Assembly: GCF_003207815.1 (NCBI RefSeq)
Contig: NZ_NKTX01000020.1
Span: 1-49,385 of the forward strand
Origin: Komagataeibacter oboediens
GTDB taxonomy: Bacteria; Pseudomonadota; Alphaproteobacteria; Acetobacterales; Acetobacteraceae
DNA length: 49,385 nucleotides
Direction: 5' to 3'
The notes below the pieces were generated by a model. That model was not told the origin of the DNA, did not search any database, and saw only the letters and a program-made list of their open reading frames with translations. A program made the position numbers and the translations under genes. Every line of letters begins with the position of its first letter. Position 1 is the stretch's first letter. Below, piece after piece: positions 1 to 1,074 of the stretch.

Positions 1-634
1 CCTGCTGGCCGATCTTGACGTCGAGTTTCCCCTTGAGGAACGACTGCTGGTACCACAGTTCGAACAGGCGGGTGGAGCGGTCAGCCTCGAACCCGCTGAT
101 CGGGTTGAAATTGTTCAGGTGATCCTGCGAAATGGAACGTCCGCGCGTCTGTAGCGCGCTGACATTGAACAGGCCGCCCTTCAGCCCGAACAGTTTTTCG
201 GTATCGATGGTCAGCGTGGGCATGGTCACGCCGTCATAGGCAGGGCCGGTGCCCGACCCCTGCCCATCGCCATTGGTGCTTGGCGTGCCACCGGTACCGT
301 TGCCCCAGACTTCATCGACTTCCTGAATGTCGAAGCTGATGCCGTGTTTGTACAGCCACGGGCGTGCACCCCACATGTTGCCCAGCAGGTTGCCGCTGGT
401 ATCCAGCGCGTTATCCGTGCCTGTGTCTGTCGTTACCGTCTGCTGCGCATCGGCCTGCGCGCGTTCTGAATCGCGCACCGTGGCCGGGTCGATCTGCTGG
501 ATCAGCGGGGTGGAATTACCTAGGCGGACGCGGTCCTGCGCAATCTGTGTCTGGACCTGTGCATGGGCATAGGAACCGAACGTGCCAATCAGGCCACAGG
601 ACAGAAGGCCGGATGAAAGGAAAAGGGTTCGCAT
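1..634 (-). CDS. OprB-like carbohydrate porin, N-terminal part
   Basis: This is the first 211 codons of a porin; the 3' end lies beyond the left edge. Residues 1-25 form a signal peptide (MRTLFLSSGLL, then a cut after AHA). The mature part has the features of carbohydrate-selective OprB porins: an early GNMWGARPWLYKHGI segment, an acidic EVWGN stretch, then EKLFGLKGG and a LFELWYQQ strand. Such porins form outer-membrane beta-barrels for sugar diffusion. An in-frame ATG 39 bases upstream (position 673) would add 13 residues (MKVLFSGPAQYGR) ahead of the signal peptide; neither start has a strong Shine-Dalgarno sequence. The start at 634 gives the more typical signal peptide, but a GC hairpin ends exactly at it. 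A cobalamin riboswitch lies about 160-200 bases upstream on the same strand. The family is assigned from pattern recognition of the N-terminus only. Confidence 0.75.
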   Translation of the reverse strand, partial: MRTLFLSSGLLSCGLIGTFGSYAHAQVQTQIAQDRVRLGNSTPLIQQIDPATVRDSERAQADAQQTVTTDTGTDNALDTSGNLLGNMWGARPWLYKHGISFDIQEVDEVWGNGTGGTPSTNGDGQGSGTGPAYDGVTMPTLTIDTEKLFGLKGGLFNVSALQTRGRSISQDHLNNFNPISGFEADRSTRLFELWYQQSFLKGKLDVKIGQQ

Positions 635-720
635 CCGGCCATATTGTGCCGGGCCGGAAAAAAGGACTTTCATGAAAAGACATCCCGTCAGGATGGGTCC
701 GGCCATATGGGGCCGGAAAA
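634..720 (-). promoter_or_regulatory. Duplicated GC hairpin in porin leader
   Basis: Two similar inverted repeats lie between the riboswitch and the porin. On the plus strand one runs 699-716 (CCGGCC ... GGCCGG around CATATG-like bases) and the other 635-657. Both share the context TCCGGCCATAT and end in GGCCGGAAA, so they look like duplicated elements about 64 bases apart. The second hairpin ends immediately before the ATG at 634. They may be part of the expression platform of the riboswitch; this is inference. Confidence 0.4.
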
Positions 721-832
721 GGGCGACCCGCCGAGCAGGCCACTGCTGGTACGGGGGGACGGAATGCTAGCTGGTCGTGTTCATGTCTCATGCCCATCTC
801 CGGTCAGCCCGCCCGACGATATCGTTAAAGGA

Positions 833-1033
833 CAGCGGCAGGTCTCCTGGCTTACGGGTCGCTGCATTTCATCTCCCTTCCCGGCCGGAGCCAGTGGTTG
901 CCGCAGGGCGGCAGCAGATGAAACACTCTCCGTTTACAGTTGCGGGTACAGCTGCCGACTCCACCCCCGGATATGATATCCTGCCGGGGTTTACAGCATT
1001 CCCTTTCCAACCCGTTTGCACGGGACCGCTGAC
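833..1033 (-). promoter_or_regulatory. Cobalamin (B12) riboswitch
   Basis: Read on the minus strand, this region carries the conserved parts of the adenosylcobalamin riboswitch: an exact B12 box AGCCAGGAGACCTGCC near 837-852, the CCCGCAACTGTAAA core near 948-962, a CCACTGG element near 892-898, GGGAAGGGAGATG near 875-888, and a GGAATGCTG element near 996-1004. The ends pair as a P1 stem (AGCGG with CCGCT). The only gene downstream on this strand is the OprB-like porin. Such riboswitches normally repress B12 uptake or synthesis genes when cobalamin is abundant, so control of this porin is the simplest reading. Confidence 0.93.
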
Positions 1034-1074
1034 TTATGGCCCGGACTATAGCGTTTACAGTCCATTAGGCAAGA

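Follow-up and report, generated by a model that had tools for sequence, protein, structure and literature searches.

A conserved five-codon open reading frame between a cobalamin riboswitch and an OprB-family porin gene in Komagataeibacter may relay B12 control to the porin

In Komagataeibacter oboediens, a cobalamin riboswitch is followed by an OprB-family porin gene, and a conserved upstream open reading frame (uORF) of exactly five codons lies between the two. We consider it likely, though well short of certain, that this leader is a B12-responsive OFF switch that works through a translational relay at the uORF, and that the porin serves the B12 economy of the cell, most likely by handling cobalt or small corrin-related solutes. 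Riboswitches are mostly depicted as acting straight on the next gene. The original prediction had assumed such direct control of the porin; instead, the conserved uORF and a predicted long-range helix between an anti-Shine-Dalgarno (anti-SD) element and the porin Shine-Dalgarno sequence (SD) stand in between. The window (the whole stretch of DNA analysed, 49,385 nucleotides) holds the regulatory unit at approximately 1072-671. Its elements and the gene are as follows.

1045..1072, minus strand: promoter-like site TTGCCT-16-TATAGT, abutting the 5' side of the aptamer
820..1045, minus strand: cobalamin riboswitch aptamer (RF00174)
852-837, minus strand: B12 box AGCCAGGAGACCTGCC, within the aptamer
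800..816, minus strand: P13 hairpin as read from the sequence, loop GCGGG complementary to L5 CCCGC
798..801, minus strand: GGAG, presumed SD of the uORF, overlapping the P13 3' strand
767..784, minus strand: five-codon uORF ATG AAC ACG ACC AGC TAG (MNTTS), present in 27/29 distinct leaders
759..766, minus strand: anti-SD element CATTCCGT, immediately 3' of the uORF stop
698..717, minus strand: hairpin TCCGGCC...GGCCGGA, enclosed in the loop that the long-range helix would close
681..688, minus strand: ACGGGATG with the oprB SD GGGA, predicted partner of 766-759
681..695, minus strand: alternative short local hairpin CATCC-TGACG-GGATG over the oprB SD, invariant in 16/16 rows of alignment A1
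1..673, minus strand: OprB-family porin (PF04966), N-terminal part with signal peptide, truncated by the contig end

The RF00174 model matched over its full length (1-189 of 189) at 1045-820 on the minus strand, scoring 94.8 bits (gathering score, 31.5) with an E value of 2e-22. Together with the exact core CCCGCAACTGT and the B12 box, this bears out the cobalamin riboswitch that had been claimed from the DNA alone. A scan of 560-1200 returned a single promoter-like site, at 1072-1045, where 0.2 were expected, and none between 833 and 673; the cTTGC...TATAGT pattern was seen in all 10 core-locus leaders, out of 29 distinct leaders, for which upstream DNA was printed. The next protein gene on the minus strand matches Pfam OprB (PF04966) with 71 bits over profile positions 3-88 of 372, as expected for the OprB-like porin proposed to lie behind the riboswitch. 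The gene is cut at base 1 after 224 codons by the assembly, since the window is the whole contig (G000:C122) and the reading frame runs off its first base. Full-length homologues are porins: the K. swingsii relative covers the whole barrel family profile (3-372 of 372, 338 bits) and also matches two solved Porin B chains (E 3.5e-18). By the porin, parts of which reach 92%, the genome lies nearest to K. intermedius and K. europaeus; it contains twelve OprB-matching stretches, four of them fragments at contig ends. The ATG at 634 is in frame but is a later one, and it was set aside as the main start in favour of the ATG at 673-671, which has GGGA nine bases upstream and is the start codon common to the relatives.

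The pairing of riboswitch and porin recurs. Of 63 loci drawn from named genomes on the basis of protein similarity, 18 have the riboswitch ahead of an OprB gene, two of the 63 contigs beginning within the porin so that no upstream DNA is visible; at L035, the riboswitch precedes a second porin on the opposite strand. Leader DNA was matched in 18 of the 19 genomes of the genus, G106 being the one with no match. The riboswitch is followed by OprB in 17/19 by similarity, including G108, which has only a short N-terminal OprB match before its contig ends, and additionally in G113 by a porin frame before the contig end. In the sister genus, that of genome G073, the pair was present in 4/4 genomes. 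G073 also holds an island (L104 and L105; G073:C3 85000-113000) in which seven B12 riboswitches are packed into about 20 kb, together with cobW, cbtA, oprB, MetE-domain and Rieske genes, cobQ, a BtuB-like receptor, transport genes, and DUF2147; metE lies close to it, and parts of the island recur in Komagataeibacter. Decay was seen at two places: the riboswitched porin of G073 is broken into two frames (L105:8238-9918), and G103 has lost part of its core-locus riboswitch (L137; G103:C3 1800984-1804131), yet its five-codon ORF remains, and two island copies are whole. Across the family, 75 of 397 sampled genomes matched an Acetobacter leader. When 30 loci were examined, which are part of the places matched in these 75 genomes with L076 added, OprB lay behind the riboswitch in 11, of which nine belong to Komagataeibacter and the other two to the genus that gave the Acetobacter-like hits; the pair thus also occurs in some Acetobacter. 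The recurrence confirms that the pair is not a peculiarity of the window.

The leader set was built from a hand-made locus list in which later loci of the same genomes were omitted as repeats. Fifty-five leaders carried the P13 pattern; after six from a second island riboswitch had been set aside, the remaining 49 reduced to 29 distinct leaders. Leaders lacking the pattern (e.g., L138, which is cut short) fall outside this count, and the 29 are kin rather than 29 independent events. An ATG lies 17-22 nt past the start of the P13 3' strand in all 29, and a stop codon, be it TAG, TGA, or TAA, follows exactly five codons on in 27. The next best start-stop pair in the stretch from -30 to +89 relative to the uORF ATG is kept in 7/29. 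The 27 leaders encode 18 different peptides (e.g., MNTTS, MYKTI, MRPPT, MAPTS, MLRIT, MHFLL, and MQFCT) that have only their first residue in common; entropy is zero at the start codon and 1.1 to 1.7 bits per site over codons 2-5. The two exceptions are K. swingsii (L008), which has TGG in place of the stop, and the Acetobacter-like L186, which has a longer frame and thus shows a riboswitch-porin pair without the five-codon relay. Another ATG, at 791 (a 93-aa frame), was rejected as a general feature, its presence being noted in the window and K. intermedius. Longer ORFs were seen behind P13 elsewhere: one of 23 codons ahead of the DUF2147 gene at L100:12283-13178 and one of 43 codons at L104:5553-6150, where two riboswitches stand back to back.

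The presumed uORF SD, GGAG (GAAG in K. intermedius and GGGG in K. swingsii), overlaps the P13 3' strand, and the P13 loop GCGGG is complementary to L5 CCCGC, the pairing that the RF00174 architecture calls for, as judged at the sequence level. Because of this overlap and complementarity, the start site that the riboswitch is expected to conceal is the one of the uORF and not the one of the porin. The masking is a prediction from base complementarity: the isolated P13 segment of the window folds weakly and in another register (-4.2 kcal/mol), while most relatives have a CCGG/CCGG stem. The spacing from GGAG to the uORF ATG is 13-15 nt (13 nt in the window), which is above the usual optimum for an SD and its start codon. 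Direct masking of the oprB SD by P13 was considered and rejected, P13 lying about 130 nt upstream of the porin start codon.

What would connect the uORF to the porin is the long-range helix. In most Komagataeibacter core leaders the uORF stop is followed immediately by CATCCCGT (in the window, CATTCCGT), the complement of ACGGGATG, which contains the porin SD and is invariant in 16/16 rows. The island and Novacetimonas leaders mostly have CTGTC versus GACAG (L014 and L136 differ), and three Acetobacter leaders, in which the SD stretch was picked by eye, have TTTTTTCCC versus GGGGAAAA. In folds of 27 leaders, the porin SD region and the 16 nt counted from the uORF stop are paired with a mean probability of 0.90 (lowest, 0.49), against a mean of 0.08 in dinucleotide shuffles of the intervening stretch; per leader, at most 5 of 100 shuffles reached the observed pairing. 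The automatic start search did not succeed for two further leaders, L184 and L186, so that they are absent from the 27-leader duplex, masking, and pairing tests; folded separately, L184 fits the relay, with SD pairing of 0.75 versus 0.24 in plain shuffles, and L186 does not. RNAalifold recovers the helix separately from two alignments that differ in sequence, the second of which contributes one both-sided change; within Komagataeibacter the helix is nearly invariant, so that there is almost no covariation inside it. The enclosed hairpin at 698..717 does vary on both sides (column pair 73/89 is U-A in 8, C-G in 7, and broken in 1 of 16 rows). Duplex energy alone gave a less even picture: it did not separate seven island leaders (p 0.09-0.41) or L137 (0.435) from shuffles and was weak for three Komagataeibacter leaders, L008, L019, and L125 (0.07-0.08). 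When anti-SDs were swapped between groups, those of Komagataeibacter, Novacetimonas, and Acetobacter bound the SD regions of their own group best (-18.7, -21.4, and -19.7 kcal/mol, respectively), and those of the island bound Komagataeibacter SD regions better than their own (-21.0 versus -17.7 kcal/mol). Taken as folding predictions, these data point to an anti-SD/SD helix formed by different sequences in three lineages. When the uORF and the 12 nt after it were barred from pairing, the unpaired probability of the SD rose in 26/27 leaders, from a mean of 0.04 to 0.34, a release that is partly built into a test that masks the partner of the SD; the sole exception was G103, whose riboswitch is damaged. 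With the anti-SD masked, the SD was still only about one-third free, and the short local hairpin at 695-681 could continue to cover it.

We propose the following mechanism, of which the direction of control and the coverage of the anti-SD by ribosomes are what we infer. When coenzyme B12 is scarce, the P13 hairpin would be open and ribosomes would start at the uORF; a ribosome starting and stopping there would cover the anti-SD directly 3' of the stop, leaving the oprB SD free and allowing the porin to be made. When B12 is bound, L5-L13 pairing would stabilise P13 and hide the uORF start site; with the uORF untranslated, the anti-SD would pair with the oprB SD about 80 nt downstream and porin synthesis would be off. 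It is the act of translating five codons that would count, and the peptide would be irrelevant.

Parts of this scheme have precedents. In erm-type translational attenuators, a helix that otherwise conceals the SD of the following gene is opened when a short leader ORF is translated. The leaders described here are similar in that the SD is predicted to be hidden by a helix with RNA just past the leader ORF. They differ in the signal, which in erm-type attenuators is a drug-stalled ribosome on a specific peptide, whereas here the riboswitch would decide entry to the ORF; no conserved stalling peptide was found, the 27 leaders having 18 peptides with variable codons 2-5. A closer relative is the B12 riboswitch of Mycobacterium tuberculosis ppe2, which, according to the accessible part of the report, acts through a uORF, uPPE2, by stop-start overlap and reinitiation (PMC11260477). 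As described there, a hairpin bearing L13 masks the uORF SD and the downstream gene requires uORF translation (PMC11260477); the first likeness holds here at the sequence level, given the weak fold of the isolated P13 segment in the window, and the second is what we propose. The ppe2 uORF overlaps its gene (AUGA) for termination-reinitiation, whereas the 27 leaders have no stop-start overlap, the uORF ending 75-106 nt before the gene, and would use five codons and a predicted long-range anti-SD helix instead. The ppe2 system also belongs to a different phylum, controls a different gene, and has an aptamer without P8-P12 (PMC11260477).

Two other routes from the riboswitch to the gene can be weighed against the relay. 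The riboswitch might act on oprB in an ordinary way, for example by Rho-dependent termination, with the uORF and the helix as by-products. There is a model for this in the M. tuberculosis metE B12 riboswitch, for which the accessible text describes masking of a start site by P13 with Rho acting downstream (PMC11260477). We nonetheless regard this as unlikely, since a length of exactly five codons, held in 27/29 leaders while the peptide changes freely, would need another reason, as would a helix built of different sequences in different lineages. Alternatively, the hairpin at 695-681 and its T-rich tail could be an intrinsic terminator, with the long-range helix as the antiterminator; this also bears on whether a transcription end lies between 833 and 673, where the scan called this one weak terminator-like hairpin. 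Five to seven T residues follow the hairpin in several relatives. However, one such call compares with a shuffle mean of 0.6, the T run is not conserved (L008 has TTCCATG and L030 has TTCCCC), and a stem of six pairs, three of them G-C, is weak, which together make a terminator very improbable. We therefore keep the translational relay as the preferred reading of the leader.

The genome of the window has seven RF00174 matches, six of them over the cut-off. Besides the one in front of the porin, two riboswitches stand before TonB receptors that score best as BtuB, although below the cut-off of that model (227 of 599.7 bits for one of them), and each receptor is followed by a BtuF-like binding protein. 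Another is close to a cluster for cobalamin synthesis that includes CobN, CobG, and CobJ, another before a MetE-domain gene and a Rieske oxygenase gene, and another points towards a DUF2147 gene; the subthreshold match (L007:1501-1685; 30.6 versus 31.5 bits) is directly before cbtA. The aerobic B12 synthesis genes CobN, CobG, CobJ, and CobQ are present, CobQ beside one btuB-like locus. At L100:10034-12212 and L105:5805-7724, stand-alone proteins match the N-terminal domain of cobalamin-independent methionine synthase (PF08267); both are behind a B12 riboswitch and adjoin a Rieske-type oxygenase-like gene (the second identified by sequence reading) and could represent a B12-independent methionine route of unknown kind.

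To place the porin, a tree was built from 62 of 109 OprB-like ORFs (90 have at least 440 residues, and near-copies were removed), the window fragment being excluded. Riboswitched porins are clustered on this tree but do not form one clade: the riboswitch label requires 7 changes, compared with 16.4 in shuffles, and at least 6 of these are forced by starred branches, so a single origin is unsupported. The neighbours of the two kinds of porin differ. P19 or FTR1 iron-transport genes lie within 3.2 kb of 15 of the 43 tree rows without a riboswitch and of 1 of the 19 riboswitched rows, the latter being L035, where both porin kinds are side by side. Riboswitched rows have cbtA, cobW, or btu genes beside them in 7/19 cases and an rbsK-like gene in 6/19; in the genome of the window, the riboswitched porin adjoins the rbsK-like gene and not cobalt genes. 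Its twin in that genome (G000:C4; L119/L181) has no riboswitch and sits beside a P19 gene (Iron_transport, 172 bits). A similar arrangement was seen at L033:3060-6575, where a related OprB porin without a riboswitch lies beside P19, FTR1, and a cupredoxin-like gene. The B12 control that had been claimed for the porin is well supported, tied to a B12/cobalt regulon by the cbtA, cobW, and btuB-btuF-like neighbours of relatives, in keeping with the first alternative of the original prediction; that this control is direct is the less likely reading.

In K. xylinus CGMCC, the likeness of the riboswitched and P19-linked copies is 49% in the first 150-nt bin, 76% in the second, and 94-100% beyond, while riboswitched copies of different species are 69-96% alike outside the signal region, below the K. 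xylinus CGMCC pair. K. xylinus K2G30 shows a similar likeness of its twins in the first part of the gene, and the Acetobacter pair at L035 is 90-100% alike in the middle, falling to 84 and 76% at its end. Likeness between the two copies is lower in K. swingsii, K. rhaeticus, K. melomenusus, and N. maltaceti and does not exceed that across species. This looks like gene conversion between porin copies in some lineages, which may explain why the window contig and the twin contig end at the same point inside the gene. Upstream sequences were also scored against a Fur consensus of 19 positions: the best match was 10-15/19 for iron-linked copies, with at least 13 in 10 of 16, the window-genome twin included, and 9-12/19 in riboswitch leaders. 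A Fur-like match specific to iron-linked porins was not upheld, as 12-15/19 was also reached in some porins with neither a riboswitch nor iron neighbours.

Judged by its neighbour genes and sister genes, the porin probably admits metal ions or small complexes, cobalt being the natural candidate under B12 control and corrinoids being possible; it seems more a sister of the iron-uptake pores than a simple channel for sugars. It would pass cobalt, free or in a small complex, or small corrin-related solutes, alongside the BtuB-like receptors. The full picture, a two-stage RNA device in which a B12 riboswitch governs a peptide-independent five-codon ORF that opens the SD, joined to a cobalt channel kept similar to its iron twin by gene conversion, we hold as a tentative reading that falls a little below even, weighed down slightly by a Fur-like match that is not specific and by gene conversion that appears in some lineages only. 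With riboswitch and relay the same, the porin might instead pass corrinoids or their building blocks, which we regard as possible but doubtful. The riboswitched porin of Novacetimonas hansenii sits before btuB- and btuF-like genes, and two loci for BtuB-like receptors follow B12 riboswitches in the window genome; the porin's close relationship to those of iron operons, however, suits a metal better, and cobalamin exceeds the size that general porins let pass, a job done by BtuB. The original prediction also allowed a sugar route switched by B12. Beyond the family name, this draws on the rbsK-like gene just upstream at the core locus (the 6/19 rows above) and on a genus paper whose accessible text takes OprB copies as likely glucose porins (PMC6528568). 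Yet the rbsK-like gene precedes the riboswitch and its promoter-like site, riboswitched copies elsewhere adjoin cbtA, cobW, and btuB rather than rbsK, and sister porins adjoin iron genes; sugar selectivity is unsupported beyond the family name, and we rate a sugar channel improbable, slightly more so than ordinary riboswitch control. A metal channel remains our preferred reading.

Related arrangements have been described elsewhere. In Novosphingobium aromaticivorans, the accessible portion of one report describes a B12 riboswitch followed by a TonB receptor, together with NiCoT and CobW (PMC7689651); there, as here, the outer membrane part of a predicted cobalt route is under a B12 riboswitch near cobW, but it is a TonB-dependent receptor, whereas here it would be an OprB porin near cbtA/cobW. 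In Geobacter, a Fur-controlled OprB-family porin with feoAB has been proposed for metal entry, as far as the accessible text goes (PMC545781), again an OprB-family porin in a metal regulon, with iron and Fur in place of the B12 riboswitch. A metal role has likewise been proposed for OprB-family porins in cyanobacteria (PMC12292863). The accessible part of PMC2667541 does not contain the word porin. Searches of the literature outside subscription papers found no report of a cobalamin riboswitch together with a porin and OprB, of a cobalamin riboswitch in Komagataeibacter, of vitamin B12 with OprB in acetic acid bacteria, or of the riboswitch-OprB pair or the five-codon relay. The elements that appear to be new are the conserved relay of five codons and the kinship of the porin with metal-linked copies; a relay from riboswitch to uORF is itself already known from ppe2.

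In these leaders a start and a stop codon are held exactly five codons apart while the peptide is free to change, beside a helix of lineage-specific sequence. The leader is therefore a clean and testable case in which translation itself would relay ligand sensing to a gene. The porin is a candidate for a little-known step, the crossing of the outer membrane by cobalt, and the glucose-porin label on the OprB copies of cellulose-producing Komagataeibacter is put in question. If the proposal is true, one kind of channel would be deployed under two micronutrient signals, B12 for the riboswitched copy and iron for its operon-linked twin.
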